From: an uncultured Bacteroides sp.
Lineage (GTDB): Bacteria; Bacteroidota; Bacteroidia; Bacteroidales; Bacteroidaceae
Reading direction: 5' to 3'
DNA length: 35,610 nucleotides
NCBI GenBank assembly: GCA_945607605.1
Contig: CALYZE010000025.1
Location: forward strand, 1 to 35,610
The position numbers and the translations under genes are program-made. Positions 5,473 to 22,079 of the stretch are shown piece after piece. Position 1 is the stretch's first letter; each line of letters opens with the position of its first letter. The notes below the pieces were generated by a model. That model had not been told where the DNA came from. It made no database searches and saw nothing but the letters and a program-made list of their open reading frames with translations.

Positions 5473-5480
5473 CAAATGTA
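5473..5480 (-). promoter_or_regulatory. Predicted -7 box of the susC promoter
   Basis: The minus strand reads TACATTTG here, an exact match to the Bacteroidetes -7 element TAnnTTTG. It would start transcription about 67 nt upstream of the susC start codon. No TTTG-like -33 box is visible 19-21 bp further upstream, so the promoter may depend on an activator. Confidence 0.6.
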
Positions 5481-5510
5481 GACAGTCTTTCAACGAGGCA
5501 TTATACCTCT

Positions 5511-5542
5511 TTTGACCGAAATACTATTTTTTTTGATTTTCC
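5511..5542 (-). promoter_or_regulatory. Predicted activator site of susC: tandem TTTG half-sites 21 bp apart
   Basis: Read on the plus strand, TTTGACCGAAA starts at 5511 and a second half-site, TTTGATTTTC, starts at 5532, exactly 21 bp on, with TATT between them at 5525-5528. The block lies 30 bp upstream of the -7 box. Elements of the same architecture and spacing precede rhaB (14245-14276) and the GH105 of operon B (22048-22079). Two half-sites repeated at 21 bp in the same orientation are typical of AraC-family proteins. The regulator is inferred to be the AraC-type protein encoded next door. Confidence 0.6.
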
Positions 5543-5581
5543 TTCAGATTTTAAAGAATCTTTTCACTACAGAAGAATATC

Positions 5582-5626
5582 CAAAGAAATAGCTAATAAA
5601 CCTTTCGTTCATTAGCTATCTCTTTG
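5582..5626. terminator. Strong hairpin after the AraC-type regulator gene
   Basis: CAAAGAAATAGCTAAT (5582-5597) and ATTAGCTATCTCTTTG (5611-5626) form a 16-bp stem with one mismatch and a 13-nt loop. It lies 36 bp beyond the stop codon of the AraC gene and upstream of the susC promoter. It therefore probably insulates susC from the regulator's transcript. The downstream U-run is poor, so it may act as an RNA 3-prime stabiliser or a weak terminator. Confidence 0.5.
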
Positions 5627-5661
5627 AACAGTGTATTAACATAGTTATCTAGTGTTATATA

Positions 5662-6585
5662 TCAATCAAACTTTTCTTCAATATTAGTTTCTCTACCAAA
5701 AGAACGATATTCCAAGGGAGTAAAGCCTGTGCGTTTTTTAAATAAGGAAAAGAAATGTTCGGTAGATTTATAGTCAAGCATAAAAGAGATTTCCTTTACT
5801 GATTGTGAAGTTCCTACTAGCAATTGTTTTGCTTTGCGCAACTTCAATTCTTGAAAATATTTTGCAGGAGCATAACCGGTATAATCTTTAAAGACTTTAC
5901 GAAACCAAGAGTAGCTGATATTCAATTTCATGGCCAATTCTTCCGGATCAATATCTTTAAAAACATTTTCATTCATAATGATTTTGGCCTGTTCTATTTT
6001 TTGATCAACATCACCTACTTCAAATATTTTATTTTTAGATATAGAAAGAACCATACCTACCATGTGCAATACGATGCCTGCAAGATATTGTTGCGAGGAG
6101 ATTTTGTCAGCTTCTGCAATCTCTAAAGCACGGGAGAAGAGAGAAACAAGTTCTTCATTCAGGCCTACTTCAAGTATTTGATTCTCCTTTGACAGGAAAC
6201 CGTTTTTTACTAAACCATCAATTACAGACCCCTCAAAACCTATGTAATATTCATTCCATCCGGTCTGCTGATAGGGATGATATGTATGCCATTGCCCGGG
6301 AAAAAGAACCATCAATCGCCCTTTGCACACCTGCTTTTCAGGAGTCGTCTCCGAAGTAAATAACCCTCTACCTTTGGTAATATAGACAAGTTGATATTCA
6401 CGTAAGATGCGCCCTTTCTGAGCATTAAAGAAATAACCGGAAGGATGGTCCTTTAAGGGATAGGGAGTATTTGGTTGAATAGATTGATAACCTACAGTGT
6501 TCACCCACAGACCATATTTCTGGTCTTTGTCATTCACAATAAGATACTTAAATTCCACTCCCAAATCATTATAATCCTTAGTCAT
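5662..6585 (-). CDS. AraC-family transcriptional regulator, probable rhamnose activator (RhaR-like)
   Basis: The 307-residue cytoplasmic protein has an N-terminal cupin-type sensor domain (about residues 25-150, with the GRLMVLFPGQWHTYHP block) and a C-terminal double helix-turn-helix AraC domain (about 200-296). The latter contains LAMKLNISYSWFRKVFKDYTG and the second-helix signature ISFMLDYKSTEHFFSLFKKRTGFTP. It sits directly downstream of the rhamnose operon, the position held in B. thetaiotaomicron by rhaR, the positive regulator of rhamnose catabolism. It is therefore the best candidate for a rhamnose-responsive activator of the rha genes. Because susC follows it, and susC and rhaB share an operator-like direct repeat, it probably also controls the transporter pair. 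No hybrid two-component sensor or sigma/anti-sigma pair is present in the window. Family assignment is firm; the inducer and the targets are inferred. Confidence 0.9.
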   Translation of the reverse strand: MTKDYNDLGVEFKYLIVNDKDQKYGLWVNTVGYQSIQPNTPYPLKDHPSGYFFNAQKGRILREYQLVYITKGRGLFTSETTPEKQVCKGRLMVLFPGQWHTYHPYQQTGWNEYYIGFEGSVIDGLVKNGFLSKENQILEVGLNEELVSLFSRALEIAEADKISSQQYLAGIVLHMVGMVLSISKNKIFEVGDVDQKIEQAKIIMNENVFKDIDPEELAMKLNISYSWFRKVFKDYTGYAPAKYFQELKLRKAKQLLVGTSQSVKEISFMLDYKSTEHFFSLFKKRTGFTPLEYRSFGRETNIEEKFD

Positions 6586-6613
6586 AACACTCGTCCTTCA
6601 TGATGTTCCGGGA

Positions 6614-6621
6614 CAAAAATA
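6614..6621 (-). promoter_or_regulatory. Predicted -7 box of the AraC-type regulator gene
   Basis: The minus strand reads TATTTTTG, an exact TAnnTTTG match, placing the start about 20 nt upstream of the ATG at 6585. The tandem TTTG site seen at the three shared promoters is absent here, so the regulator is probably not controlled through that element. Confidence 0.45.
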
Positions 6622-6686
6622 AGAATTATTTATGAATAATAAGGAAAGAAAGAAACTAAAGATGTTGGTCTACCCGTCACAAGAAC

Positions 6687-6757: not shown

Positions 6758-6778
6758 AAATTTTAGAAAAACCCAGAT

Positions 6779-6827
6779 TAAATAAGGATGTTAATTTATT
6801 CTCCTCAAAAGTATATATCCTTATTTA
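6779..6827 (-). terminator. Inverted repeat overlapping the GH105 stop codon, possible operon terminator
   Basis: TAAATAAGGAT (6779-6789) is the exact reverse complement of ATCCTTATTTA (6817-6827), giving an 11-bp stem with a 27-nt loop. On the minus strand a GGGTTTTTCT stretch follows about 7 nt after the stem. The right arm includes the stop codon of the GH105 gene. The long loop and AT-rich stem make this a weak candidate for the end of the rhamnose operon. Confidence 0.35.
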
Positions 6828-8150
6828 TTTCTTGGAAAAGACAATTTTATCATATTGTTCTTCTGCTTTAATCTCCGTATATTTCGGTGCATCCATCATC
6901 TCAATCAAAGCACGAAGCACAGGACCTTCACCCATCGGATCATTCACCTGAGTAGGACGATTGTAATAATAAGCAGTAGAAGGCATAATACCTGTACCCA
7001 CACAAATAGTGGTAACATCACCATTTTCTGAAACCTTGCTCAGCATACCTTTCAACCCTTGTTCTGCCACGTAGATAAAGTCAGGATGCAACCATCCATG
7101 TTTTACGCCACGAGCGATGCCAAAGACAAACATAGAGGTACCAGTGATTTCTTCATAAGAATCTTCTTTATCAAGTAGTTGGTGCCAAAGGCCATTTTTA
7201 CCCTGATACCGTGCTACACCACTACATTGGCGTTTGAAGCACTCTAACACTTCTGCACGTAAAGGATGATTTTCAGGCATCACATCTAACAGATCAGCAG
7301 TAGCCATGAAAACCCAACCATTCGCACGACTCCAATAAGCAACGCCATGTTCCTTGTTGTCCGTATGATAACAGTGATAAAAAATATTCTTTTCAGGACA
7401 CCAAAGATATTTGTGATAATTAATGACCTGATTGGCAGCATCGTCTATATACTTGGTATCACCCGTCATCTTGCCCATACGTGCTAAGAAAGAAATTGCC
7501 ATGAATGCATCATCAGCCCAGATAGTATTAACGTGAGGCCATATACGAGCAATCGTCCCATCTTCTAGACGAGGCTCTGCATACTTCAGATGATCCGCTG
7601 TTTCATTGATATAATTCAAAAAAGCTTTTTTAGGCTGTTTCATTTGCAAATCAATCAGAGAAGCACCCATTGGACCATTATCATCCAAGCGCTTACCACG
7701 GAAAATCATATGCCAACTCAGTTTACGAACTCCATGCCATCCTTCTTCTTTCATAGACTGGTCATACTGTTTCTTGAAAAAATCTAGATTGCCTTCATTA
7801 AATACAAAGTTCATATTTTTAAGAACATAATCATCGTATTTCTTTTCGCCAGTCTTATTTGCCAGTTCCATTAAAGCAATATGAGTCACACCATTGGTAT
7901 AATGCCAGTTGTTGTATTTGCAAGCTACCCGTACATTCATATCCAAGGGTAGATTCTTCACTGATTTGTAAATTTCGCCTGTCTTTGTATTCTCGAATTC
8001 GTATGTAGTAGTACCCAAAATACGATCAGCTATTTTTGTCGCAACCTTTGCAGCAGAGAGGTTCGCCTGAGCAGCCGTTTTCAATTCAACTTGTGCAGAA
8101 AGGGTAGCAGTAGCCAACAACAACATACAAAAACTAACTATTTTTTTCAT
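6825..8150 (-). CDS. GH105 unsaturated rhamnogalacturonyl/uronyl hydrolase, last gene of the rhamnose operon
   Basis: The 441-residue protein has a signal peptide (about 1-20, ending LSAQ) and is probably periplasmic. It has the (alpha/alpha)6-barrel pattern of family 105, which hydrates and removes the 4,5-unsaturated uronic acid left at the non-reducing end by polysaccharide lyases. Candidate acidic active-site blocks are RLDDNGPMGASL (about 154-165) and IWADDAFMA (about 210-218); the second corresponds to the DxxxM block of characterised GH105 enzymes. The YWSRANGWVFMA and EITGTSMFVFGIARG blocks are also family-typical. It is 21 bp downstream of fucO and so belongs to the rhamnose operon, although it is an extracytoplasmic glycosidase. 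It differs clearly from the other GH105 at 20740-21942, so the two probably act on different unsaturated oligosaccharides. The exact uronic acid is not determinable from sequence. Confidence 0.88.
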   Translation of the reverse strand: MKKIVSFCMLLLATATLSAQVELKTAAQANLSAAKVATKIADRILGTTTYEFENTKTGEIYKSVKNLPLDMNVRVACKYNNWHYTNGVTHIALMELANKTGEKKYDDYVLKNMNFVFNEGNLDFFKKQYDQSMKEEGWHGVRKLSWHMIFRGKRLDDNGPMGASLIDLQMKQPKKAFLNYINETADHLKYAEPRLEDGTIARIWPHVNTIWADDAFMAISFLARMGKMTGDTKYIDDAANQVINYHKYLWCPEKNIFYHCYHTDNKEHGVAYWSRANGWVFMATADLLDVMPENHPLRAEVLECFKRQCSGVARYQGKNGLWHQLLDKEDSYEEITGTSMFVFGIARGVKHGWLHPDFIYVAEQGLKGMLSKVSENGDVTTICVGTGIMPSTAYYYNRPTQVNDPMGEGPVLRALIEMMDAPKYTEIKAEEQYDKIVFSKK

Positions 8151-8171
8151 GATAACGTTTTAAATGATGAA

Positions 8172-9326
8172 TTAAAATGCTTTACGATACAATGCTTCAA
8201 TATCTTCGACAGAAGTGGAGCGAGGATTTCCACCGGTACATACATCATTGAAAGCATCTATAGCAAGCTGGTGCAAATCTTCTTCCCTAACATTGATTTC
8301 ATGTAATTTCTGAGGAATGCCAATACTCAATGAAAGTTGTTTCACTGCCTCAACGGCGGCACGCACACCTTCATTTTCGCTCATACCATCCGTATTTACT
8401 CCCATAGCCTTAGCTATAGACATATATTTGGGAGCGGCTAGAGATTTTGCATTATATTCCATAACATAAGGTAGAAGCAAGGCATTCGCGACGCCATGTG
8501 GAGTGTCATAATGAGCTCCCAAAGGATGAGCCATAGAGTGTACAATGCCTAAACCTACATTACTAAATCCCATACCTGCAATGTACTGAGCTTGAGACAT
8601 TGCTTCACGTGCTACAGTATCATTACCATTATCGACAGCTGCTTTCAGATTGGCCGCAATCATTTCGATAGCTTTTAATTCAAACATATCAGACATCGCC
8701 CATGCACCCGGAGTAATATAACTTTCAATAGCATGTGTCAAAGCGTCCATACCAGTTGCGGCAGTCAACCCTTTTGGCATCGAATACATTAATTCAGGAT
8801 CTACAATTGCCACTGCTGGAATATCGTTTGGATCCACACATACCATTTTTTTCTTGGCATCCTCGTCGATGATAACATAATTGATCGTTACTTCAGCTGC
8901 AGTCCCTGCAGTAGTAGGCAAAGCAAAGGTAGGAACTGCCTTGTTACGGGTATTCGCTACTCCTTCCAATGATTTTATATCTGCAAAATCAGGATTATTG
9001 ACAACAATACCGATACCTTTAGCCGTATCAATAGAAGAGCCACCACCCAATGCCACAATAAAGTCGGCGCCAGAAGCCTTAAAAGCTTCAACACCATGTT
9101 GAACATTAGCAATGGTAGGGTTTGCTTTTACATCACTGAAGAGTTCATAAGGAATTTTATTTTTCTCAAAGACTTCAATTACTTTATCCGCTACTTTAAA
9201 ACGTAGCAAGTCTTGGTCTGTTACAAAGAAAGCTTTTTTAAAACCTCTACGAGCAGCTTCTACAGCTATAGTCTCACGACACCCTGCCCCGAAGTAAGAG
9301 GTCTCATTCAATATCATTCTATACAT
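8172..9326 (-). CDS. fucO: Lactaldehyde reductase / 1,2-propanediol oxidoreductase (iron-type alcohol dehydrogenase)
   Basis: This cytoplasmic NADH-dependent enzyme reduces the L-lactaldehyde released by RhaD to L-1,2-propanediol, recycling NADH during anaerobic growth on rhamnose. The 384-residue protein is full length for the group-III iron-dependent alcohol dehydrogenases. The N-terminal RMILNETSYFG matches the FucO N-terminus. The nucleotide-binding block GGGSSIDTAKGIG is at 94-106. The iron ligands expected for FucO are in place: Asp194 and His198 in GMDALTH, His263 in IVHSMAHPLG, and His277 in DTPHG. It starts 13 bp after rhaD. The equivalent gene in the B. thetaiotaomicron rhamnose operon is called rhaO. 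No aldehyde dehydrogenase for the oxidative branch is present in the window, so fermentation to propanediol is the encoded route. Confidence 0.94.
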   Translation of the reverse strand: MYRMILNETSYFGAGCRETIAVEAARRGFKKAFFVTDQDLLRFKVADKVIEVFEKNKIPYELFSDVKANPTIANVQHGVEAFKASGADFIVALGGGSSIDTAKGIGIVVNNPDFADIKSLEGVANTRNKAVPTFALPTTAGTAAEVTINYVIIDEDAKKKMVCVDPNDIPAVAIVDPELMYSMPKGLTAATGMDALTHAIESYITPGAWAMSDMFELKAIEMIAANLKAAVDNGNDTVAREAMSQAQYIAGMGFSNVGLGIVHSMAHPLGAHYDTPHGVANALLLPYVMEYNAKSLAAPKYMSIAKAMGVNTDGMSENEGVRAAVEAVKQLSLSIGIPQKLHEINVREEDLHQLAIDAFNDVCTGGNPRSTSVEDIEALYRKAF

Positions 9327-9339
9327 ATTATACGTTCGC

Positions 9340-10149
9340 TTATTTAGGTAAATTAAAGGCTACAGACATTTCATTCATCTGAACCTGACTCATTCCATCT
9401 GGTTCAAAACCCATGTTTCGGGCAGCAATGTAAATCAATGCCGATTTATTGAGGACATCCACTTGGTCAAAGGCAGTCATCGCATCCGTGTCAACGGCAA
9501 ATACGCCATGTTTCTCCCACATTACGACATCGTACTCAGCTAGTTCATGAATCGTAGCTTCAGCCAGCTCTACAGAGCTTGGGAGTTTATATGGAATGAT
9601 TCCCAAACCACGTGGACAAAATGCCTTTGTCTCAGGTATCATACTCCAAAGCAGATTGGATGCTACGTCTTTTTCCAAAAACTTTTTGTTGTGAGTCATA
9701 GCAATCAGTTCGATAGGATGTGTATGTACAGATGCTTTATAAGGAGACCCTTGTTCAATAAGACGATTGTGTACACTGAGATGGGAAGGAAGTTCAGAAG
9801 TTGGTAATACCGGTTGATCAGCTATAATGACGTAACTTGCACAATCATCAAGAATACGAATAACTGAACCGTTTTCCATCGGCCAACGAGCAAGGTCACG
9901 CATACGTTTATTGGTCCCTTTGCAATAAAAATAACAACCCTTCAAATAAGGTAAAGTAGTACCAATAGGTTTTACTTCACTAATAGCAGGCATACCCTTG
10001 ATAGCGTCGTCTACATATTCAGTCACATTCACGGTGATGTTTCCACCGTTACGCTCGGCCCAGCCTTTCTGCCAAAGATAACCTGCAACTTCGGCCACCT
10101 TATTTACTTCAGTAGCCAATGCTGGACGATTGTTTAATATTGATTCCAT
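9340..10149 (-). CDS. rhaD: Rhamnulose-1-phosphate aldolase
   Basis: This zinc-dependent class II aldolase cleaves L-rhamnulose 1-phosphate to dihydroxyacetone phosphate and L-lactaldehyde in the cytoplasm. The 269-residue product is the usual length for RhaD. The N-terminal block GWAERNGGNITVNVT is characteristic. The zinc ligands appear as His142 and His144 in SVHTHPIELIA and His214 in WEKHGVFA. The catalytic acid/base is Glu119 in TSELPSHL. Each position is within two residues of its E. coli counterpart. It is separated from rhaT by 112 bp that contain a small hairpin and an exact -7 box, so part of its transcription may start internally. It is followed after 13 bp by fucO, which uses its product. 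Confidence 0.96.
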   Translation of the reverse strand: MESILNNRPALATEVNKVAEVAGYLWQKGWAERNGGNITVNVTEYVDDAIKGMPAISEVKPIGTTLPYLKGCYFYCKGTNKRMRDLARWPMENGSVIRILDDCASYVIIADQPVLPTSELPSHLSVHNRLIEQGSPYKASVHTHPIELIAMTHNKKFLEKDVASNLLWSMIPETKAFCPRGLGIIPYKLPSSVELAEATIHELAEYDVVMWEKHGVFAVDTDAMTAFDQVDVLNKSALIYIAARNMGFEPDGMSQVQMNEMSVAFNLPK

Positions 10150-10175
10150 ATAAATTAATTTTTCCCATCCTCGCT

Positions 10176-10261: not shown

Positions 10262-11293
10262 TTAATTCTGCGCCATCGCAACTACAATAATTGAAGCAAT
10301 CAGCACTGCTAATCCGAGAATCAGTATACTAATAGTTTTTGAACCACAGCCTTTCCACTCTTTCAACAGCATACCCCAGACATTACTGAACGTTACATTT
10401 AACGACATCAGGATACTCCAGGAAAAAGCAATAAGTATAGGACTGTCCGCAAGGAAACTCTTCCCCATTTCAAGACCGAAGAATTGCGAATACCACAATA
10501 CCCCCGCAAGAGCGCAAAACAACAGGTTGTTAACAAATACATTGCCTTTGATAGAAAAATACTCCTTACCTGTCTTATTCTTACTATTTTGCTGAATGCA
10601 ATAAACTGCATTCGTAAAGAAACCACCCAAAGTAACGAGAAAGATAACTGGAAGTCCGGCATACAGCGGAGCGACGCCTCCTGCTAGTGCAGCTTCCTTA
10701 ATTGGCGTACCAGCATCTAATCCGAGAGCGAAGCATGCGCTCATCACACCTGCAAGTAGAGCAACTAACAAACCTTTGGTTAAAGCGAAATCTTTCACAG
10801 CCGCTTTTTTCTCTTCTTCACTCATATTCTTGGAGCGTAAACCACCGGCATAACCGATAACAGCGATACCTGCCAAAGTGATACATACCCCGATGAGCAA
10901 CATCAAGCCGTCACCATGGAACAAATCTTTTCCGGCAAAGAGTGCAGGGAAGAGAGTTCCAAAACCTGCACAAGTACCCAAAGCGATACTTTGTCCGAGA
11001 GCAACACCCAGATAACGCATACTGAGTCCGAATGTTAAACCTCCTACTCCCCAGAGTACACCATAGATCATAGAAGGCATTGCACCGCCCGAGTTCCAAA
11101 GTTCTATCAGATTACTGCCGGCAGGAATAGCAAGCAAAGCTCCTAATAACGGAAAAATTAGCCAAGCAAAAATACCCTGTACGAGCCAAAAGCTTTCCCA
11201 AGACCAATTTTTCACTTTTTTAATTGGCACATATGAACTGCTTTGTCCGAAACTGCCGATGGCTATGATTAATAATCCTATTAGTGTGTTCAC
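10262..11293 (-). CDS. rhaT: L-rhamnose/H+ symporter
   Basis: This inner-membrane permease brings L-rhamnose into the cytoplasm by proton symport. The 343-residue protein matches the size of E. coli RhaT (344 aa) and shows about ten hydrophobic segments. Its N-terminal block (YVPIKKVKNWSWESFWLVQG) is a hallmark of this small family, and the segment GVLWGVGGLTFGLSMRYLGVALG (abbreviated at about residues 78-100) is also conserved. The start codon is GTG (CAC on the plus strand at 11291-11293); no in-frame ATG was seen just upstream. It lies between rhaA and rhaD, the order seen in the B. thetaiotaomicron operon, where the gene is called rhaP. The 114-bp gap to rhaA holds a long inverted repeat that may tune relative expression. 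The role is inferred from family and context, both strong. Confidence 0.95.
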   Translation of the reverse strand: MNTLIGLLIIAIGSFGQSSSYVPIKKVKNWSWESFWLVQGIFAWLIFPLLGALLAIPAGSNLIELWNSGGAMPSMIYGVLWGVGGLTFGLSMRYLGVALGQSIALGTCAGFGTLFPALFAGKDLFHGDGLMLLIGVCITLAGIAVIGYAGGLRSKNMSEEEKKAAVKDFALTKGLLVALLAGVMSACFALGLDAGTPIKEAALAGGVAPLYAGLPVIFLVTLGGFFTNAVYCIQQNSKNKTGKEYFSIKGNVFVNNLLFCALAGVLWYSQFFGLEMGKSFLADSPILIAFSWSILMSLNVTFSNVWGMLLKEWKGCGSKTISILILGLAVLIASIIVVAMAQN

Positions 11294-11399: not shown

Positions 11400-11407
11400 T
11401 CACTTTT

Positions 11408-12658
11408 TTATCGCTTGGAAGTAACTTCCGCTTCGTACTTCTGAATTTCTGCAATGAATGCTTCGCCTACAGGAACATTATTCTTCAAGCAGAACATATC
11501 CCAAACGGCATTCCAAGGTAGAGATTTTGATTCTTCGAGCAATGCAAGACGTTCGAAACCTTGATTATTTGCCTCATATTGACGCAATTGAGTAAGTGGT
11601 TCGAGTAATGCTTGCATCATACATTTTTGAGTAGCACGGCTACCAATAACGTACGCACCGATACGATTAATACTTGCATCGAAGTAATCCAGACCAATAT
11701 GTACACGATCCAATGCATCGCAACGAACAATCTCCTTACACAAATCCAAAGTATCGTCGTTCATTATAGTTACGTGGTCGCTATCCCAACGTACCGGCCG
11801 GCTAACGTGCAACATAATTTCAGGAATGAAAAGCAGCAGTGAAGATAACTTGTCGGCAACACTTTCAGTTGGATGGAAGTGACCGGTATCCAACGTAACA
11901 ATCTTGTTACGGCTTACTCCATAGCCAATGTAAAAGTCATTAGAACCTACTGTATAACTTTCTAGTCCAATACCAAATACTTTAGACTCTACACAGTCGC
12001 GCATATTCTTGTATTCTTTTTCAAAGATGCGATCAAGAGAATCTTTCAGCAATTCACGATACTTCATGCGATTTACCGTGATGTCCTTGCTACCATCGTG
12101 TACCCAAAGGTTCATGATACAAGGATCACCTTGGCGTTTACCCATTTCTTCGGCAATGGCACGGCAACGAATAGTATGTTCTACCCAAAAGTCACGGATG
12201 CCTTTGTCGGGATTTGATAGAGACAGGTCACCACTCTTTGCATGAGAAAAAGAAGTTGAGTTGAAATCCAACTTCATATTATTTTCGGCAGCCCATTGCA
12301 TCCAGCTTTCAAAGTGTGCAGGCTCTACCTGGTCGCGGTCAACAAATTTTCCTCCAAAGTCACCATAGATCTCATGCAAGTTCAAACGGTGTGTACCGGG
12401 AATGAAAGAAGCAGCTTTCAGTACGTCCTGACGCAGTTCTTCCATATTACGAGCTTTCCCCGGATAGTTACCTGTAGCTTGAATACCTCCGGTCAGAGAA
12501 CCTTGTGCCTCGAAACCAGCTACGTCATCTGCCTGCCAGCAGTGCATGGAGAGAGAAATTTTTTGCAAGGCATCCATTGCCTTATCTACATCAATACCAA
12601 TAGCGGCATAACGCTCTTTAGCAACTTCATAGGCCTTTAAAATCAATTCTTCTTTCAT
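11408..12658 (-). CDS. rhaA: L-rhamnose isomerase
   Basis: This cytoplasmic metal-dependent isomerase converts L-rhamnose to L-rhamnulose, the first step of catabolism. The 416-residue product is close to the 419 aa of E. coli RhaA and is complete. Family blocks are clear: the N-terminal SMHCWQADDVAGFE (37-50); GTHRLNLHEIYGDFGGKFVDRDQ (abbreviated at 88-110); the metal-binding region with GLESYTVGSNDFYIGYG (from 231) and LDTGHFHPTE (256-265); and LLHVSRPVRWDSDHV-like MLHVSRPVRWDSDHV (282-296), whose His and Asp residues bind the catalytic metal in characterised enzymes. It follows rhaB by 49 bp of AT-rich spacer and precedes rhaT. The B. thetaiotaomicron operon names this gene rhaI. Assignment is secure. 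Confidence 0.97.
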   Translation of the reverse strand: MKEELILKAYEVAKERYAAIGIDVDKAMDALQKISLSMHCWQADDVAGFEAQGSLTGGIQATGNYPGKARNMEELRQDVLKAASFIPGTHRLNLHEIYGDFGGKFVDRDQVEPAHFESWMQWAAENNMKLDFNSTSFSHAKSGDLSLSNPDKGIRDFWVEHTIRCRAIAEEMGKRQGDPCIMNLWVHDGSKDITVNRMKYRELLKDSLDRIFEKEYKNMRDCVESKVFGIGLESYTVGSNDFYIGYGVSRNKIVTLDTGHFHPTESVADKLSSLLLFIPEIMLHVSRPVRWDSDHVTIMNDDTLDLCKEIVRCDALDRVHIGLDYFDASINRIGAYVIGSRATQKCMMQALLEPLTQLRQYEANNQGFERLALLEESKSLPWNAVWDMFCLKNNVPVGEAFIAEIQKYEAEVTSKR

Positions 12659-14206: not shown

Positions 14207-14214
14207 CAAAAATA
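14207..14214 (-). promoter_or_regulatory. Predicted -7 box of the rhaB (rhamnose operon) promoter
   Basis: The minus strand reads TATTTTTG, an exact TAnnTTTG match, giving a leader of about 26 nt to the rhaB ATG at 14174. The same bases form the U-run side of the terminator hairpin that ends the upstream GH28 transcript. No -33 box is apparent. Confidence 0.55.
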
Positions 14215-14236
14215 GGGGATTACTCCCCTATTTTTG
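14207..14236. terminator. Bidirectional intrinsic terminator between GH28 and rhaB
   Basis: CAAAAATAGGGGA (14207-14219) and TCCCCTATTTTTG (14224-14236) are perfect 13-bp inverted arms around a 4-nt TTAC loop. The GC-rich inner stem flanked by A-run and T-run gives a good intrinsic terminator on either strand. It lies 70 bp past the stop codon of the lipoprotein GH28 gene and would end operon B. Its distal arm contains the -7 box of rhaB. Confidence 0.8.
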
Positions 14237-14244
14237 GTAACTAA

Positions 14245-14276
14245 TTTGACTGAAAGTGTATTATATTTGATAATCT
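14245..14276 (-). promoter_or_regulatory. Predicted activator site of rhaB: tandem TTTG half-sites 21 bp apart
   Basis: Read on the plus strand, TTTGACTGAAA begins at 14245 and TTTGATAATC begins at 14266, with TATT at 14259-14262. Over 32 positions, 23 agree with the element before susC at 5511-5542, and both lie exactly 30 bp from their -7 boxes. A RhaR-type AraC protein is the expected binder, since this is the promoter of the rhamnose operon. Confidence 0.65.
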
Positions 14277-14306: not shown

Positions 14307-15830
14307 TTACTCCACCCCTTCACAGAATCGAGTTACTATCTTCTCTCCTTCCGAATTACGGATATTCACATTCTTCATGCTGATGTTCTTACTATAGATA
14401 AATTCAGCTCCCAACTTAGAAGTGATATCAATGTCTTCCAGCACAATGCCATCAATTGGCATTTCGGGAATACCATTAAAGAATAGCGCACGACGAGCAC
14501 CGGCACATACCATTTTTGTCACATGGATATTGCGGAAACAAGGAGTAGTTTCGTCAACAGGCATAGGCTCTACTTCTGCCGGAACCGTCTCTCCACTTTC
14601 AAGAACTTCTACAGCAGATTTTCCACCATAATAAAGATTGAAAGTGATTGGTTCCGTTGGGATATCCATCATGGAAATATTGGTGATCCAAATATTTTCT
14701 ACAATCCCCCCGCGCCCACGTTTACTTTTAAAACGTAAACCGACGTCGGTACCTAAAAACTGACAGTTACTGACTGAGACGTTGCGTACGCCACCACTCA
14801 TTTCGCTCCCTACTACAAATCCTCCATGCCCTTTGAATACAGTGCAACCATCTACTACGATATTTTCACATCTACGCCCGCGGCGGCGACCATCTTCATC
14901 CTTTCCACTCTTTAGACAGATACCATCATCGCCTACATCGAAAGTCGAATTTACAATCAGTGCATTTTTGCAAGACTCTAAATCTAGCCCGTCACCATTT
15001 TGGGCGTAGCTTGGATTTCGTACTTGTACTCCTTCAATCAGCACATTTTCGCACATCAGCGGATGCAGATTCCATGCTGGAGAGTTTTGAAAGATAACAC
15101 CCTGCAACCAAACGTTCTTACACTCAATGAGGCTCACCATCACTGGACGAAGAAAATGACGGACGCTTCTCCATTCTTCTTCTGTTTCCAATGTTTGAGG
15201 CACATTCATATTACTAATGGTATCTCCTTTCAGCGTTTCGGGATAAGGGAACCAGTAAGTAGGACGTTTATAAACTCCACCACGAGCTATAGATTTATTC
15301 CACTCACTTTCCGTCACCTTTTCACGTTTCAGAGGACGCCAGTAATGGCCGTTTCCATCAATAACACCGTCCCCAGTGATGGCCACATTCTCCAGATTAC
15401 GGCCGGATATAGGAGATTGGCAACGACGAGTATCAAGTCCTTCAAAAACTGTTTCAACTAAAGGATAGAGATCAACATTCGGAGAAAAGAGAATAATGGA
15501 ACCTTTCTTCAAATGCAGATCAATATTGCTTTTCAGAACGATTGGTCCAGTAAACCAAACTCCGGCAGGGACAATCAAATGTCCCCCACCCTGCTCCGAT
15601 AGAGAATTGATAGCTTTAGCAAAAGCCTCAGTACAAAGTTCTTCTCCATTACCGATAGCTCCGAAATCTTTCAAATTCACACTACGGTTCGGAAATACAG
15701 GAGCTTCTACCCGAGGCATCTCAAAAGGCAGATTACTGTATAGCTCTTCATATTTATACTCCGTTGCAGGCTGGCAAGCACTAAGCAACCACAAGCAAAT
15801 GGCTGCAATTACATACAATTGTTTAGTCAT
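14307..15830 (-). CDS. GH28 family lipoprotein, polygalacturonase or rhamnogalacturonan hydrolase/galacturonidase
   Basis: This 507-residue right-handed beta-helix glycosidase hydrolyses alpha-linked galacturonate in pectic backbones. A lipoprotein signal ends at Cys19 (LLSAC), so it is membrane-anchored, unlike the other CAZymes here. The start of the catalytic domain is NLKDFGAIGNGEELCTEAF (52-70). The GH28 active-site motifs are complete: NGDGLD (278-283, Asp280), DD at 301-302 in VGDDGICLKSG, GHGGFVVGSE (334-343) and RFKSKRGRGG (366-375). It lies 256 bp after PL11, and no promoter-like box was found in that gap, so it is probably the last gene of operon B; the strong hairpin 70 bp downstream would terminate it. 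Enzymes of this kind in RG-I loci act as exo-galacturonidases or endo-hydrolases. Which applies here cannot be read from the sequence. Confidence 0.9.
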   Translation of the reverse strand: MTKQLYVIAAICLWLLSACQPATEYKYEELYSNLPFEMPRVEAPVFPNRSVNLKDFGAIGNGEELCTEAFAKAINSLSEQGGGHLIVPAGVWFTGPIVLKSNIDLHLKKGSIILFSPNVDLYPLVETVFEGLDTRRCQSPISGRNLENVAITGDGVIDGNGHYWRPLKREKVTESEWNKSIARGGVYKRPTYWFPYPETLKGDTISNMNVPQTLETEEEWRSVRHFLRPVMVSLIECKNVWLQGVIFQNSPAWNLHPLMCENVLIEGVQVRNPSYAQNGDGLDLESCKNALIVNSTFDVGDDGICLKSGKDEDGRRRGRRCENIVVDGCTVFKGHGGFVVGSEMSGGVRNVSVSNCQFLGTDVGLRFKSKRGRGGIVENIWITNISMMDIPTEPITFNLYYGGKSAVEVLESGETVPAEVEPMPVDETTPCFRNIHVTKMVCAGARRALFFNGIPEMPIDGIVLEDIDITSKLGAEFIYSKNISMKNVNIRNSEGEKIVTRFCEGVE

Positions 15831-16086: not shown

Positions 16087-17919
16087 TTACTCGCCTAAAT
16101 AATACGATGGCACCGGTGCCTGCGGATATCCCATACTACGATGAGCTACATAGCTACGATATAATGGATCTTGCATCAACGTTACACGACGGTCACGAGC
16201 AGGACTATTAGTACGATATATACGTAATTCTCCCGGTAAAGCAGTGATCAATTCTTCGCGCCAATCACCTTCCATGTCTGCTATCATGAGAATATCTCCT
16301 TCTATACCTTCAGTCAAAACTTCACCCCTCCATTTCCAAACACTTTGTTGGCGACCGTTGGAAGAAGAACTTGCGCCCCAACGATTATCATCTCCTTTGA
16401 AAGTTTCACGTAATAGGTCGGCATCCCACCAAATCCAGTTACGACAACCGGGAACTTCTTCATTGGCGACGTTCAGTTTCTTTCCATCAGATGTCAGAAG
16501 ATATTTATCAGTACTACCACCTTTGCGATCCTCGCTGGCAAAACATTCCAAACCGGGGTGAGCAGAATCAAAATCAGCAACCATACCATCGCCTACATGG
16601 AAGGTGGTTTGTCCGATGCCCCAAATTAGTTTTCCGGTTTTGGCATCTACTACAGAAACACCACGACCATCTTCATTCTTGGGCTCACTAACCATAAAAA
16701 CTTGCATGCCTTCCATATCGGGACGCAATTTGCAAAGGTAGGACTTATCGCTATGTCCTAAACCGGAAGACCACAGCAGAGTACCATTATCATCGAGGGT
16801 ACAAGAGCCTAACATGACTTCGTCGCGTCCGTCACCATCGACATCTGCCGCCACCATGCTATGAGCACCCATGCTGCGGACAAGCGGATTCTCTTCGTCA
16901 CCGTCCCAACGCCAGGCCCGTTGCAGTTTGCCATCTTTCAGCATCCAGGCATCTACAACCATTAGTTTGTATGTGCCGCGTGCCGACAGAATATAAGGAG
17001 TCTTTCCATCCAAATAGGCAACACCCATCTGATTACGATTCTGACGTATAAGGTTACCGTAACGGTCGTTACGTTCGGGCCAGTCCACACGGTCTATCTG
17101 CTTCCCGGTCATGCCATCAAGTACGGAGAGATATTCACTGCCGCCACAAACACGACCTTTATCATTTTTTATATAATCATCCCCAGCTGTCTTGATAGCT
17201 ACTTCCGCTTTCCCGTCACCGTCAAAATCGTAAACAATAAAAGGAGAATACCAGATGCCAGGTTCAATGCCGGGACCCATATCGTAAGTCCACAGATAAG
17301 TGCCATCACTCAGATAAGCAGAGATTTTGAACGTTTTTCCGGTAGTGTCGCCCGGCATACCGGGGTCTACATTGCTTTCGGGAGTACGGATGATATAGTC
17401 ATAAGTACCGTCACCATTCAAATCGGCAAGAGCTATCTTACCGGCTTTTACTCCGTCGTGCAGACGAATGGATGTATATTGTTTTAAATCGGGAAGTATC
17501 ACTTCCTTTTTGTCCGAAGCAGTAGGTTTCTGTCCTTTCACAATTGCTTCCACCCAATAAGAAGCTTGCTCAGCAGGAGTAGCATCTACAAAATCACAAG
17601 TCCGGGAAATGGGTTTGGAGGAGAGGCGACGAACTTTACCGTCCGCTTTCCGATACACATGAAAACCTGTTGTTGGAGCATCAGAGGCAAGCAAGCGCCA
17701 ACTTAAATAAACGGATTTTCCATCTTGTGAGGGAACAACCGTAAGCCCGCGATTTAATTTTTCTACGACTCGTTCTTGGGCAAATCCTTCAACCGGCGGT
17801 TTAGATTCATGCTTGGGATTTAGAATTTCCCAATAATAATGTCTTTCTAGCGGATCTTGAGCATACAATGCATAAACAGAAAGACAGAGCATTACCAACG
17901 TATAAATGTATTTTTTCAT
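16087..17919 (-). CDS. PL11 rhamnogalacturonan lyase
   Basis: This enzyme cleaves the alpha-1,4 bond between rhamnose and galacturonate in the RG-I backbone by beta-elimination, leaving unsaturated galacturonate for the GH105 enzymes. The start chosen here (MKKYIYTLVM, 610 aa) gives a clean signal peptide ending LYAQ. The longer open frame back to 18024 would overlap the preceding gene and place the signal internally. The domain order is that of family 11: an N-terminal beta-sandwich (about 40-140), then an eight-bladed propeller rich in calcium-type DxDxDG loops (ADLNGDGTYDYI, YDFDGDGKAEVAIKT, AADVDGDGRDEVMLG). The conserved C-terminal region has WWDADLLRE and ADMEGDWREELITALPGELRIY-type segments. 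It lacks a lipobox, so it is probably periplasmic. It sits 38 bp after GH106 in operon B. Confidence 0.94.
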   Translation of the reverse strand: MKKYIYTLVMLCLSVYALYAQDPLERHYYWEILNPKHESKPPVEGFAQERVVEKLNRGLTVVPSQDGKSVYLSWRLLASDAPTTGFHVYRKADGKVRRLSSKPISRTCDFVDATPAEQASYWVEAIVKGQKPTASDKKEVILPDLKQYTSIRLHDGVKAGKIALADLNGDGTYDYIIRTPESNVDPGMPGDTTGKTFKISAYLSDGTYLWTYDMGPGIEPGIWYSPFIVYDFDGDGKAEVAIKTAGDDYIKNDKGRVCGGSEYLSVLDGMTGKQIDRVDWPERNDRYGNLIRQNRNQMGVAYLDGKTPYILSARGTYKLMVVDAWMLKDGKLQRAWRWDGDEENPLVRSMGAHSMVAADVDGDGRDEVMLGSCTLDDNGTLLWSSGLGHSDKSYLCKLRPDMEGMQVFMVSEPKNEDGRGVSVVDAKTGKLIWGIGQTTFHVGDGMVADFDSAHPGLECFASEDRKGGSTDKYLLTSDGKKLNVANEEVPGCRNWIWWDADLLRETFKGDDNRWGASSSSNGRQQSVWKWRGEVLTEGIEGDILMIADMEGDWREELITALPGELRIYRTNSPARDRRVTLMQDPLYRSYVAHRSMGYPQAPVPSYYLGE

Positions 17920-17957
17920 TATAGTTATATCTAGAACTCTGATATATAATAACTTTC

Positions 17958-20738
17958 TTACTTCAAACTCTTCATCGGCATCATTTTCACCGGACCAAGT
18001 AATCCACTTGACATGGGACCCCAACCAGCATAGGTACCATTTGTGTTACTCGAACCCAATGCTGCAATATTGACATTCTTGAAAATACGCCATACTTCGC
18101 CACGACGATCCATATCGGCAATGCGATTAGCAGGCAGATTGGTTACCTCCACTTCTAAAATATTTTTGCCGGGACGCAGGTATTGACCGACCATACACTG
18201 GTAAGGAACAGCCCAAAGCGTGGCAACTTCCTTACCATTGATACGAACACGTGCACTTTCACGAACATCACCCAAAGAAAGCATCCAGTTTTCTGCGGAA
18301 GCAGAATCCTCTACATGGAAGGTCGTTGTATAGCAAGCCGTTCCCATCGTAGTGGTAGCTCCATCGAAAGACAAATCAGTCCATGAACCAAGAGAGACGG
18401 ATTCGGGAACATTTTTTACAGCCGGAGCACTTTCTATAAAACGGAAATCCCATTTTTGTGCAAATGTTTCGCATAAGGTACCTGATTTGCCCTCACAAAT
18501 CGGCGAATAGTATTTCCAATCTTCAGCTTGTACATTTGCCTCCGTATATGTTTTCAGAATTATTGATTCTCCCGAAGTTAGTTGCAAGAATACTTCCGTT
18601 TTACCATCCTTCTGACGCAAACGAGCCTTACCTGATGTTCCGTTCATCGGATTGAAAAGCATAGCCGAACGGGCAGATACAGCCAGAGGCACCCACCCCT
18701 CAGTATCTTTGTCCGTCAATGCCGAAATGAAGTAATGATATCCATCAGTATTTGAGCGGCGGATGCAGCTTAAGTCAAAAGTCGTTTTCATCGCTTCGGG
18801 AGTAGCAGGAGTTTGTGCCAATGTGGTAGCATAGTTTGTTCCGAAAAGAATGCGTTCCTTTTGATTCTTAATCTGCACCAGTGTCTTTTGGAATGCAGCA
18901 CGGCGTTCCATCAATGAAGCACCACCCGGCACATCTTCGGGGTATTGGTCAAGAAATACAATCGTTGCACCTTGTTCCGCCAAAGTTTGCAGTTTAGCAA
19001 GCACATCCTCCGGCATCAATCTTGCCCCGGGAATAACCATTGCTTTATAAGCGACACCTCCCGAAGTCACAATCTTCCCGTTGCGACATTGAGCTGTACG
19101 AATAAAGTTATCAGAAATATAGTCCATATCATAGCCGGCATCATTAATGCGATGTACTACCTCTATAAAACCTGGAGCACGTTTTGCCATACTATGAATA
19201 TCAAACATCAGCAGACGACCATTCTGTTCATGCCACATATCATAAACCGGCAAATAAACCAAAAAATCATTATCAGGCTGTCCCATTTGCAAGAAACTTT
19301 GGCAGCGAGTAATGTAATTAAAGAAAGCAGGCGCATCTCTCCAGATACTGTTTGTCGGACTCATATCTACAGTTGCATAAAATTTCCACCCCGGCCAGGC
19401 AGCTTCAACAGGAGAATAGGTAATACCATGAAAATACGTATGATTGACACCCGACACGAACAAGAGGTCGATATCCGGTTTGCATTGTGACAAAGAAGTA
19501 CGGAAATGTTCCGTCAACCAGGTAAATGTCTCCGAAGAAGTATAAGGTTTTCCAGCAATATGTGCTCCGGAAGATGCATACTTCAACATGGAAAGATCTG
19601 AGTCATTAGGACGTGTGATAGAGTCCTTTCGCAGGCCACGAATGTCAAAATTCGACAAACCGTATCCTTCACATTCGGGTACATCTACAGAAGCATAAAT
19701 ATCTATCAAGTTACCAGGTGATCCATGCCCTTGGTTGCGCGTCCTCGAACCATGTTTATTAGCCCAGCCTGTCCATTGGCTAGTAAAGTTTTCCTGAAGT
19801 AGTTCGGCAAGAGTTTCACGGTAATCACTGATTAGACGACGAGTAGCATCAGTGCGTTCACCTTCATCCAGAAATTCGGGTAAACATTCTTCCAATTTAT
19901 AACCACGACGGACAGCGAATTGGTCGAACAAATCGTCTGTCCAGTCACCACCGTAGACTTCGTAAGAATCATTAAAGAAGTTATTGGGATAGGGAGTATC
20001 AGTGGAAAATGCACGTTCAAAGCGTCCCAAGTAATTAGCCACAGCTTCTTTTGAAAAATGATTCATCACATAACCTTCACCCCCAGGAGCAGCACGTTTC
20101 ACTTGTTGAAAGGTTTTCCCAACAAAAGCAGCAATAATACGCCACTTGCCTTTTGGAGCTTTCCATTGCAACATATCATCTTTTACCAGTGAAGTCAAGT
20201 CGATACAACGCAGTTCTTTCTTCCCCCCCGCTGATAAGATATTGTAAGCCATCAAACGGCTCAGTCGGGCATAAGGGCGCTGTTTTTCATCCGGTACCAG
20301 AATCTTCTCTTTGAGTCTCTCTCCACCTTTCAATGTATATTCGCTGATTAAGAGTTTGCAGGCAGCATCTTTTATTGACACTTCGGGACCGCCAAAAGGC
20401 CAACCCGTTCCGGCATTCATATCGATTTTCATACCGAGGCGTGCAGCTTCACTTTCTGTGTGGCGAAGCATTTCCATCCACTGCGGAGAAAGAAACGAGA
20501 TATCATTAGCATCATTACCTTGTACTCCATAAATGGGAGTGATTTCCATAGTCCCCATACCAGCCTTAGCATATTCTTGCAGATTGTGGGTAAGATTAGC
20601 TTTATCTACTGCACTTCCCATCCACCACCAACGAGCGGCGGGCTTTGCATCAATCTTCACTTCCGGCCATGATGTACTTTGAGCAAACACCATTCCAGTA
20701 GCCAAAGAAGCGATCAAAAGAAGAATTTGTTTTTTCAT
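17958..20738 (-). CDS. GH106 alpha-L-rhamnosidase
   Basis: This enzyme removes terminal L-rhamnose from pectic oligosaccharides, here most likely from RG-I backbone fragments after GH105 has removed the unsaturated galacturonate. The 926-residue protein has a signal peptide (about 1-19, ending VFAQ). The N-terminal family block PAARWWWMGSAVDKANLTHNL is abbreviated at about 33-53, and the catalytic domain includes NDSYEVYGGDWT and KPYTSSETFTWL, the latter holding a probable catalytic Glu. A C-terminal beta-sandwich resembling a GH2 sugar-binding domain (about 790-915) has RVRINGKEVATLWAVPY and ILEVEVTNLPANRIADMDRRG-type features. Its start is one base from the stop of the upstream GH105, so the two are probably translationally coupled. 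This fits consecutive steps, since GH105 exposes rhamnose and GH106 releases it. Confidence 0.93.
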   Translation of the reverse strand: MKKQILLLIASLATGMVFAQSTSWPEVKIDAKPAARWWWMGSAVDKANLTHNLQEYAKAGMGTMEITPIYGVQGNDANDISFLSPQWMEMLRHTESEAARLGMKIDMNAGTGWPFGGPEVSIKDAACKLLISEYTLKGGERLKEKILVPDEKQRPYARLSRLMAYNILSAGGKKELRCIDLTSLVKDDMLQWKAPKGKWRIIAAFVGKTFQQVKRAAPGGEGYVMNHFSKEAVANYLGRFERAFSTDTPYPNNFFNDSYEVYGGDWTDDLFDQFAVRRGYKLEECLPEFLDEGERTDATRRLISDYRETLAELLQENFTSQWTGWANKHGSRTRNQGHGSPGNLIDIYASVDVPECEGYGLSNFDIRGLRKDSITRPNDSDLSMLKYASSGAHIAGKPYTSSETFTWLTEHFRTSLSQCKPDIDLLFVSGVNHTYFHGITYSPVEAAWPGWKFYATVDMSPTNSIWRDAPAFFNYITRCQSFLQMGQPDNDFLVYLPVYDMWHEQNGRLLMFDIHSMAKRAPGFIEVVHRINDAGYDMDYISDNFIRTAQCRNGKIVTSGGVAYKAMVIPGARLMPEDVLAKLQTLAEQGATIVFLDQYPEDVPGGASLMERRAAFQKTLVQIKNQKERILFGTNYATTLAQTPATPEAMKTTFDLSCIRRSNTDGYHYFISALTDKDTEGWVPLAVSARSAMLFNPMNGTSGKARLRQKDGKTEVFLQLTSGESIILKTYTEANVQAEDWKYYSPICEGKSGTLCETFAQKWDFRFIESAPAVKNVPESVSLGSWTDLSFDGATTTMGTACYTTTFHVEDSASAENWMLSLGDVRESARVRINGKEVATLWAVPYQCMVGQYLRPGKNILEVEVTNLPANRIADMDRRGEVWRIFKNVNIAALGSSNTNGTYAGWGPMSSGLLGPVKMMPMKSLK

Positions 20739-20739
20739 A

Positions 20740-21942
20740 TTATTCTTTGTTAGATTTTTCCAGTTCTAAACATCCCATAATGAGTGGGCCTGTTGCTTTT
20801 GCGTCGTTATCCCGCATCTTTTCACCTATATAATATTCAAAACTACCGTCGCGATACGGATTCCCACCTAAACCTCCTACCTGACAGCAACGGGTCAAAG
20901 TCAGGGTACCATCCGAATTCTCAATGAGTAGTTTATCTTTCAAACCTTGCAATGCTTTTTCCGCCACTGCACGATATTTAGCATCAATGTATCCTTTGTT
21001 TACCGCTTTGGCATAACCGTACATACATTGTGTAGTTACTGACGCCTCGGGAAAGTTTCCTTTACGTGTTGGTTGATCAATTACTTGATACCACAAACCA
21101 TCTTTATCCTGATATTTCGGCAATGCGTCTGCCAATCCTTTGATATAACCAACCATTTCAGTACGTCCCGGATGATTCTCCGGAATATAATCCAGTGCAT
21201 CTACCAAAGCCATAAACCACCAGCCGATACTACGTCCCCAAAAATTGGGCGAATGCCCTGTCTTCGGATTAGCCCAACGCTGACTTTTGCTTTCGTCCCA
21301 AGCATGATGATACAAACCAGTTTTTGCATCATAAGTATGCTTGTGGCAAAGGAGAAATTGTTTCACGGCTTCGTCTATCCATTCCGTTTGATTGAATTCA
21401 GCACCATATTGTGCCATAAACGGAGATGCCATGTACAAACCATCCAGCCACATCTGATGCTGATAGATCAATTTGTGCCAGAAACCGCCTTCCAATGTAC
21501 GAGGTTGGTTTTTCAGCTGACGGACAAGCATGTCCATCGCTTTCTTATATCGCGGGTCACTCGTCTCCCGATACAGGTCAAATAAAACTTTACCTGAATT
21601 GATGTAATCCAAGTTATAAGTTGCCATATCGTACAGATGTATTTCTCCCTGTTCATTAATCAATGAATCAGCCCATTGCTTTACGTAATCATAGTAACGG
21701 CGATCGCCTGTGGTTTTCCAGACTTGCAACATGGCGCAACATCCCACGCCTTGTGCATAACCAAAGAATAAGCGCTTGCCATGATCCAATTGATAAGCTT
21801 GCGGAAAGCGTACCATTTCAGAGTCAGCAAAGCGGCATGCATAAGAAGAGGAAGAGTTTTTTGCATGCAGAGATTCGTTCGCCGTTATCGTACACAAGAC
21901 AAAAAATAAAAGAATGATTGATTGAGCAAAGAATTTTTTCAT
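20740..21942 (-). CDS. GH105 unsaturated rhamnogalacturonyl hydrolase (YteR/YesR type)
   Basis: This enzyme removes the 4,5-unsaturated galacturonate that PL11 leaves on rhamnogalacturonan oligosaccharides. The preferred start (MKKFFAQSII, 400 aa) begins with a signal peptide. The open frame reaches 22032, but the extra 30 residues are not signal-like and would run over the predicted promoter at 22010-22017. The active-site blocks match characterised YteR-type enzymes: NLDYINSGK with Asp112 and QMWLDGLYMASPF with Asp167 correspond to the two catalytic-site aspartates of Bacillus YteR. GRSIGWWFMALVDALDYIPENHP is a further family block (given here in part). It is the first gene of operon B, one base ahead of GH106, and PL11 follows. 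Its sequence is much closer to the YteR group than the GH105 in the rhamnose operon is. Confidence 0.93.
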   Translation of the reverse strand: MKKFFAQSIILLFFVLCTITANESLHAKNSSSSYACRFADSEMVRFPQAYQLDHGKRLFFGYAQGVGCCAMLQVWKTTGDRRYYDYVKQWADSLINEQGEIHLYDMATYNLDYINSGKVLFDLYRETSDPRYKKAMDMLVRQLKNQPRTLEGGFWHKLIYQHQMWLDGLYMASPFMAQYGAEFNQTEWIDEAVKQFLLCHKHTYDAKTGLYHHAWDESKSQRWANPKTGHSPNFWGRSIGWWFMALVDALDYIPENHPGRTEMVGYIKGLADALPKYQDKDGLWYQVIDQPTRKGNFPEASVTTQCMYGYAKAVNKGYIDAKYRAVAEKALQGLKDKLLIENSDGTLTLTRCCQVGGLGGNPYRDGSFEYYIGEKMRDNDAKATGPLIMGCLELEKSNKE

Positions 21943-22009
21943 GTGCTTTAAATAGTTTGATTTTAAAATAAAATACCCAGAATGATGAAGTTGCCAATGA
22001 CTGACGCTG

Positions 22010-22017
22010 CAAAAGTA
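22010..22017 (-). promoter_or_regulatory. Predicted -7 box of the operon B promoter (GH105-GH106-PL11)
   Basis: The minus strand reads TACTTTTG, an exact TAnnTTTG match, about 68 nt upstream of the GH105 ATG at 21942. The surrounding ACGCTGCAAAAGTA (plus strand, 22004-22017) recurs with one change before the operon A GH2 gene at 28504-28517. No -33 box is visible at 19-21 bp. Confidence 0.6.
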
Positions 22018-22047
22018 AGAAGATTCTCCCAAACTACCTCTTGTTGT

Positions 22048-22079
22048 TTTGGCAGTTCTATTATTGTTTTTGCCTTTAT
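22048..22079 (-). promoter_or_regulatory. Predicted activator site of operon B: tandem TTTG half-sites 21 bp apart
   Basis: On the plus strand, TTTGGCAG begins at 22048 and TTTGCC begins at 22069, with TATT at 22062-22065. The start is 30 bp from the -7 box. This reproduces the arrangement at susC and rhaB, although bases outside the TTTG, C, G and TATT positions have diverged. Confidence 0.45.

Follow-up and report, generated by a model that had tools for sequence, protein, structure and literature searches.

A 35,610-nucleotide stretch of DNA from an uncultured Bacteroides sp. (contig CALYZE010000025.1 of assembly GCA_945607605.1, positions 1 to 35,610; hereafter the window) carries one tandem promoter element before a susC-like transporter gene, the rhamnulokinase gene rhaB and a GH105-GH106-PL11 operon, through which the AraC-family protein encoded at 5662-6585, RhaR, very probably controls rhamnose catabolism together with the import and backbone cleavage of rhamnogalacturonan I (RG-I). 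The window is contig C25 of a 2.65-Mb draft genome, and its named close matches belong to Bacteroides. The assignment is predicted from the sites themselves, their geometry, their conservation across relatives, the genes that follow them and their co-occurrence with rhaR.

An earlier note, made from the sequence without database searches, had placed the element at 5511-5542, 14245-14276 and 22048-22079 and described it as two TTTG half-sites 21 bp apart, exactly 30 bases from a TAnnTTTG box. The tandem element is confirmed, with all of these features present at each of the three promoters, and a recount again gives 23 of 32 identical positions between the susC and rhaB copies (21 of 32 for susC/GH105 and 17 of 32 for rhaB/GH105). 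The sequence had been written on the plus strand, whereas genes and element read on the minus strand, where in the direction of transcription the form is CAAA-N3-AATA-N6-CnGnCAAA-N30-TAnnTTTG. In the whole draft genome the original pattern occurs three times, always in the window, with no occurrence on the opposite strand and none of the reversed pattern; its absence from 300 Markov-random windows is a weak statistic, because the pattern was derived from these same sequences, and conservation provides the better test. The parts of the three elements are:

5504..5515, minus strand: susC promoter, promoter-proximal half-site TCAAAAGAGGTA (from sequence; kept in 13/14 susC loci)
5525..5536, minus strand: susC promoter, distal half-site TCAAAAAAAATA, 21 bp from the proximal one (from sequence and matrix)
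5473..5480, minus strand: susC promoter, -7 box TACATTTG, 30 bases from the element (spacing conserved)
14238..14249, minus strand: rhaB promoter, proximal half-site (kept in 49/54 rhaB loci)
14259..14270, minus strand: rhaB promoter, distal half-site (from sequence and matrix)
14207..14214, minus strand: rhaB promoter, -7 box TATTTTTG (from sequence)
22041..22052, minus strand: GH105 promoter, proximal half-site, divergent (CCAAA; geometry kept in 17/17 relatives)
22062..22073, minus strand: GH105 promoter, distal half-site, divergent (GCAAA; geometry kept in 17/17 relatives)
22010..22017, minus strand: GH105 promoter, -7 box TACTTTTG (from sequence)

Conservation was assessed over 80 named loci around relatives of the AraC-family gene (the best 80 of 161, some ending at contig edges), using a matrix trained on 44 distinct rhaB-upstream sites, after two outliers among 46 had been dropped, and calling a site at a score of at least 9 with the box at 29-31 bases. 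A site stands upstream of rhaB in 49 of 54 loci, a count that is circular because the matrix was trained on rhaB sites, and upstream of susC (at least 45% identity) in 13 of 14, a result that, like those for GH28 and GH105 below, is independent of the training data. The upstream regions of rhaA, rhaT, rhaD, fucO, GH88b, rhaR and susD yielded 0 sites in 293, and reversed and column-shuffled matrices yielded none anywhere. Among 51 rhaB loci chosen for a full box at 29-31 bases 45 have a spacing of 30 and six a spacing of 29; a separate scan of the rhaB spacing sought the box from 20 to 45 bases.

The GH105 copy scores 5.5 on the rhaB-trained matrix, compared with 27 for the rhaB and susC copies of the window, and taken alone is not convincing. 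In a comparison set of 20 fetched stretches, 17 of which contain GH105, both CAAA half-sites and the box precede the gene in 17 of 17 loci, with a spacing of 30 in 16 and 29 in one; the GH105 sites are a diverged but maintained subclass. A first rhaB-matrix scan had suggested that this third site is missing in most relatives, which proved wrong: in 15 of the 17 the GH105 open reading frame (ORF) carries an extra 458-516 aa N-terminal to the aligned part (14 aa in L133 and 223 aa in L143), and there the site precedes the whole, longer ORF. In L185, the one scanned with Pfam, the extra part is an acetylesterase (SASA). Conservation before orthologous genes, which the earlier note had proposed as a check, is what was found for rhaB, susC and GH105 alike.

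For the consensus, 48 non-redundant sites were compared, and the best-kept positions, several of which were fixed by the search pattern, are, in each half-site, (T)CAAAA and the A that follows its C at a distance of ten bases, with TTTC preceding the second half-site; the half-site is TCAAAAnnn(A)nA, directly repeated at 21 bp. At positions left unfixed, the first T is kept in 72%, the last A of each TCAAAA in 70% and 88%, the second A-at-ten in 92%, and the T and C of TTTC in 84% and 80%. The TATT core and the CnG of the motif as first described are not among these best-kept positions. The absence of a visible -33 box agrees with the entire set, in which TTG, TTTG and TTGA each stay below 12% at every spacer offset, and the spacer (columns 32-54) has an information content of at most 0.48.

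The predicted regulon is larger than three promoters. The exact pattern TCAAA-N16-TCAAA-N30-TAnnTTTG has three matches in the genome, namely susC, rhaB and a GH28 gene on contig C3, where 38 bases separate the end of the box from the gene start and the nearest NCBIfam model, the BT4155 galacturonidase, remains below cut-off (341 vs. 800 bits). Orthologues of this GH28 have a site (score at least 9, box at 29-31) in 39 of 58 upstream regions (22/30 plus 17/28), or in 47 of 66 when eight with strict genus-scan sites are included; one of the nine extra orthologues lies at a contig edge. Allowing one mismatch adds a second susC (C90; 63% identical to the window's and cut by the contig end), a DUF4861 gene (G000:C24:22440, L118; matrix score 0.0, yet aligned with the relatives' site) and a propeller-sensor gene cut by its contig end (G000:C15:2216-2279, L117; score 17.0, box at 30). 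The last of these has no comparable site in 29 relatives' loci (best score with a box 5.1, in L332) and is left unproven; it lies divergent from a neighboring gene whose protein start resembles what we take to be asnA. On C94 a site scoring 12.1, with its box at 30, precedes the gene for a 715-aa protein (G000:C94:3603-5747, L330) without a Pfam match at E<=0.001. Two mismatches bring eleven further matches, GH105 among them, the other ten being left uninterpreted; an open frame of more than 270 aa holds eight of these eleven, the GH105 site included, as well as the one-mismatch DUF4861 site, and an open frame around a match does not separate noise from sites.

Across 158 same-genus genomes, our own included, the pattern CAAA-N6-A-N3-TT-N4-TCAAA-N29/30-TAnnTTTG gave a site in 80, the reversed pattern giving one site in all; in a family sample of 399 genomes 35 had a site, including 12 of 365 outside the genus. 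Eighty stretches behind sites were fetched; in 78 of them the longest of the ORFs that begin within 900 bases was chosen and assigned by BLAST to window proteins or among themselves, with Pfam on representatives. These are 20 GH28, 20 rhaB, 13 susC (ten at 48-77% identity to the window's susC and three at 32%), eight DUF4861, seven GH105, two GH28-like, two GH106, two more distant GH106, one rhaA and three others (an ORF of 102 aa where the contig ends, one of 1150 aa with N in its sequence, and a protein with a WbsX domain); of the two remaining stretches, one (L209) opens with a GH106 gene, and in the other (L230) the contig breaks off. A scan of this and related genomes, also suggested at the outset, places 75 of 78 strict sites with a following ORF before rhaB/rhaA, susC, GH28, GH105, GH106 or DUF4861 genes, and the refuting outcome named in the earlier note, a motif standing before many unrelated genes, did not appear.

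The 307-aa AraC-family protein at 5662-6585 matches Pfam PF12833 (the AraC helix-turn-helix, HTH) and PF02311 (AraC_binding, a cupin) above cut-off and is best read as RhaR. It is conserved, with 17 relatives at 61-95% identity, and its gene sits in a rhamnose setting, with rhaB-A-T-D in the window and rhaB passing the filters in 54 of the 80 loci; it scores below the NCBIfam equivalogue cut-offs for the E. coli kinds of AraC (58 of 208 bits), RhaS (49 of 288) and RhaR (35 of 363). Identity is 81-82% to proteins that B. faecis, B. xylanisolvens and B. finegoldii encode in an equivalent rha setting, and none of the 80 loci is named B. thetaiotaomicron, which leaves BT_3768 itself outside the comparison. 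The operator, a direct repeat with a 21-bp period, agrees with that in print for Bacteroides RhaR (Rodionova et al. 2013, PMC3870299; compared by statement). In a set of 99 genomes, with RhaR presence called at E<=1e-90, the genus-scan site occurs in 46 of 54 genomes with RhaR versus one of 45 without it (Fisher p 2e-18, a value that overstates independence because the genomes are related and kinship was ignored); three of the 45 encode no closer relative than one at 43-44% identity and lack the site. Of five genomes that have an orthologue of the C3 GH28 gene and no RhaR, G129 has the GH28 site and the other four do not. That the protein at 5662-6585 drives the regulon, as the earlier note had suspected, is an interpretation supported by the way the sites track its gene across genomes.

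Several observations, the inflated significance just mentioned among them, weigh against this assignment. Eight of the 54 RhaR genomes lack a strict site, G095, a 74% complete assembly without RhaR, has one, and the GH28 site of G129 scores 14.1 though no RhaR was found there. Scores on the rhaB matrix are low for the GH105 subclass, not only in the window, at 5.5, but also in L131, L137 and L139 (1.0-2.8), and the window's copy needs two mismatches, a level at which the scan of its own genome returns 17 matches versus 7 for the control. The in-cluster GH28 has a site in 0 of 14 loci and GH106 in two of eight, both genes usually lying inside operons, and no RhaR-type site stands upstream of the RG-I-type block at 22323-28505 (BT4146 and BT4151 equivalogues plus GDSL and DUF4450 genes). 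Finally, deletion of rhaR leaves B. thetaiotaomicron able to grow on rhamnose, according to PMC11669328.

We propose that each element would be bound by the local RhaR, as a dimer on two head-to-tail half-sites whose 21-bp repeat corresponds to two helix turns, with the near half-site ending beside the would-be -33 box position and the far one further upstream. L-rhamnose-bound RhaR would then recruit RNA polymerase to promoters with a good -7 box and without a -33 box, the two boxes by which Bacteroides promoters are named. If TAnnTTTG is assumed to span -11 to -4, the starts of the half-sites fall near -67 and -46, the second half-site extending to about -35, and it is from about this position that AraC-type activators such as E. 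coli AraC at araI contact polymerase; E. coli AraC at araI1-I2 likewise uses half-sites repeated in the same direction at 21 bp beside its promoter, and its half-site is a different one. Such a placement predicts rhamnose-dependent activation, with the half-sites on one helix face. A single protein would thereby switch on the rhaB operon for rhamnose catabolism, susCD for import and GH105-GH106-PL11 for hydrolysis of the RG-I backbone, and elsewhere in the genome it would act on the GH28 gene, the second susC, the DUF4861 gene and the gene for the 715-aa Pfam-less protein. Binding and activation are predictions, and rhamnose as the signal is carried over from B. thetaiotaomicron RhaR, where BT_3768 drives the BT_3763 (rhaK) promoter (PMC6692515) and expression of the rha operon rises with rhamnose as well as when rhaR is overexpressed (PMC11669328).

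The same repeat could in principle serve a hybrid two-component system (HTCS) sensor, leaving RhaR with rhaB only, given that Bacteroides HTCS motifs are direct repeats at an average distance of 21 bp (PMC3878776) and that Reg_prop genes lie on ten other contigs of this genome. A search for an HTCS gene (propeller, kinase, receiver and AraC HTH) beside the polysaccharide utilization locus gave no Reg_prop match on C25, a contig that ends at susD, with the far side of the locus beyond it. We nevertheless regard this as highly improbable, since rhaB carries the very same element, the link of RhaR to the rhaK promoter in B. thetaiotaomicron is experimental (PMC6692515), and the presence of the site follows RhaR. 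In B. fluxus and B. stercorirosoris (G016 and G151) the roughly 40 kb beyond rhaR contain no ORF above 1106 aa, and in G155, taken as B. xylanisolvens, a 1445-aa HTCS lies about 11 kb from the GH28 orthologue, which adjoins a 1087-aa ORF, yet the element is missing.

It is also conceivable, though we consider it unlikely, that RhaR binds the susC and GH105 elements and depends there on a co-regulator, either an HTCS or the orthologue of the Crp-like BT4338, so that rhamnose alone would be insufficient. In B. thetaiotaomicron an HTCS and a monosaccharide sensor are combined for arabinan use, and many carbohydrates require BT4338 (both PMC5061871), and the window's rhaB promoter has an extra palindrome, while a candidate site precedes the propeller-sensor gene; on the other hand, that sensor-gene site is absent from the 29 relatives' loci and the spacer columns carry little information over the 48 sites. 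Chance similarity among A+T-rich promoters picked by eye, which the derivation of the pattern from the same three sequences and the weakness of the third copy might invite, has a negligible probability: it is ruled out by fixed-spacing conservation across loci, the GH105 geometry and the genus scan with its control, and an extra exact match falls before a GH28 gene. Control by RhaR remains the reading we prefer.

In the order of transcription on the minus strand the window's genes are GH105-GH106-PL11, GH28, rhaB-rhaA-rhaT-rhaD-fucO, GH88/105, the AraC-family gene, susC and, at the contig end, susD:

20740..21942, minus strand: GH105, target (Pfam GH88; likely ATG start at 21942)
17958..20738, minus strand: GH106 alpha-L-rhamnosidase, BT4145 equivalogue (NF049897, 1478 bits vs. 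a cut-off of 1300)
16087..18024, minus strand: PL11 rhamnogalacturonan lyase (ORF start uncertain)
14307..15830, minus strand: GH28, downstream of PL11
12708..14174, minus strand: rhaB rhamnulokinase, target (TIGR02627 above cut-off)
11408..12658, minus strand: rhaA rhamnose isomerase (NCBIfam above cut-off)
10262..11293, minus strand: rhaT rhamnose symporter
9340..10149, minus strand: rhaD rhamnulose-1-phosphate aldolase (NF002963 above cut-off)
8172..9326, minus strand: fucO-type lactaldehyde reductase (NCBIfam above cut-off)
6825..8150, minus strand: GH88/GH105-type hydrolase between the rha genes and rhaR (Pfam GH88)
5662..6585, minus strand: rhaR, AraC-family regulator (AraC_binding + HTH_18), proposed activator
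2159..5398, minus strand: susC-like TonB-dependent transporter, target
1..2145, minus strand: susD-like, probably in one operon with susC to judge by the 13-bp gap

NCBIfam equivalogue cut-offs are passed by the GH106 (BT4145), by a second GH28 at 22323-23726 (BT4146) and by a GH2 at 25602-28505 (BT4151), so that the window has relatives of the B. thetaiotaomicron RG-I locus beside its rhamnose operon; the sugar carried by susCD would be RG-I-derived. The rhaB promoter has one further feature:

14213..14230, no strand assigned: perfect palindrome TAGGGGA-N4-TCCCCTA, between the element and the -7 box and overlapping the box

Its core, AGGGGA-N4-TCCCCT, lies next to the box in 11 distinct relatives' loci and is possibly the operator of a second regulator.

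The 715-aa protein L330 belongs to a family of about 700 aa (L039:17687-19861, L322:665-2812, L049:7655-9766, L089:11242-13347 and L319:12505-14616) that is 62-95% identical across Bacteroides and one Paludibacter locus (L089). In the members scanned no Pfam family exceeds cut-off, the best being a sub-cut-off GH65N in L049, and the N-terminus looks lipoprotein-like by eye. Most members were recovered via their RhaR-type site; of those recovered otherwise, a site precedes the copy in our own genome, and none is seen for L319 of B. xylanisolvens. DUF4861 genes with RhaR-type sites upstream occur in L118, L181, L190, L200, L213, L221 and L249, a regulon-based hint at a role in RG-I or rhamnose use.

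The regulator and the type of motif are already known; within the searched literature, the joining of RG-I genes to RhaR is the new part. No published report of RhaR sites before susC or RG-I enzymes was found among the papers listed in a search by titles and the beginnings of abstracts, with supplements, figures, RegPrecise and most subscription journals outside it. B. thetaiotaomicron RhaR (BT_3768), with rhaKIPAO, is likewise an AraC-family activator next to rha genes and has a single target operon in Ravcheev et al. 2013 (PMC3878776, as BT3768), whereas in the present genome susC, GH105-GH106-PL11 and unlinked genes have sites as well. In that species the RG-I locus BT4145-83, which contains equivalogues of the window enzymes (BT4145, BT4146 and BT4151), is associated with the HTCS pair BT4178/BT4182 (HTCS_Rgu-2; PMC3878776). 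HTCS proteins are membrane sensors, in contrast to the separate AraC-family protein that accompanies the site here. Erwinia RhaS with rhiTN and the RhaR of Actinomycetales and Thermotogales resemble the present case in using one rhamnose regulator for catabolism and for uptake of rhamnose-containing oligosaccharides (PMC3870299), unlike it in that regulators and transporters are non-orthologous and the motifs different. BT1754, the fructose sensor for levan, similarly joins a polymer and its monomer under one regulator (PMC5061871); it senses fructose in the periplasm, whereas the 307-aa protein is probably cytoplasmic, because its Pfam domains are ligand-binding and HTH only.

Species differ in how far the site extends. 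In a quick tree of the 80 RhaR rows, in which many forks are open, rhaB sites are present in 14 of the 15 rows of the B. finegoldii/B. faecis/B. xylanisolvens/B. acidifaciens clade (support 97), whose fetched loci contain no further labeled site, the label being a loose one (score at least 5 with a box before an ORF of at least 250 aa other than rhaB). Labeled sites before other genes occur in 29 rows elsewhere in the tree, Paludibacter included, where they precede proteins of unknown family, of which only L089 belongs to the ~700-aa Bacteroides family. In Paludibacter L086, L087 and L098 the site after rhaR precedes proteins of about 630-646 aa, a second family, with a weak secretion-tail match in L087 and L098. 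Two other environmental genomes (L083 and L112) have GH28 after the site, and B. fluxus and B. stercorirosoris have a second susC past rhaR, 54% identical to the window's, also with a site. B. thetaiotaomicron presumably falls in the B. finegoldii/faecis/xylanisolvens clade. With so quick a tree and so loose a label we claim no direction of gain or loss, and the pattern fits either a gain outside the model clade or the loss in it of an old arrangement. As a tentative possibility, RhaR control of RG-I may be the older arrangement, with traces in Paludibacter, lost in that clade with its enzymes left to HTCS, and the element may also tag the Pfam-less ~700-aa family and DUF4861 as unrecognized RG-I proteins. 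If this is true, the textbook model species shows a derived wiring.

Induction of glycan loci in Bacteroides is usually ascribed to membrane sensors that respond to oligosaccharide fragments. In a number of the species considered here, the import and backbone cleavage of a dietary pectin appear to be run by a monosaccharide regulator, an arrangement not seen in the clade close to the model organism. The element is sufficiently short and specific for genome-wide target prediction, and it suggests the conserved ~700-aa family and DUF4861 as new candidates for pectin use.

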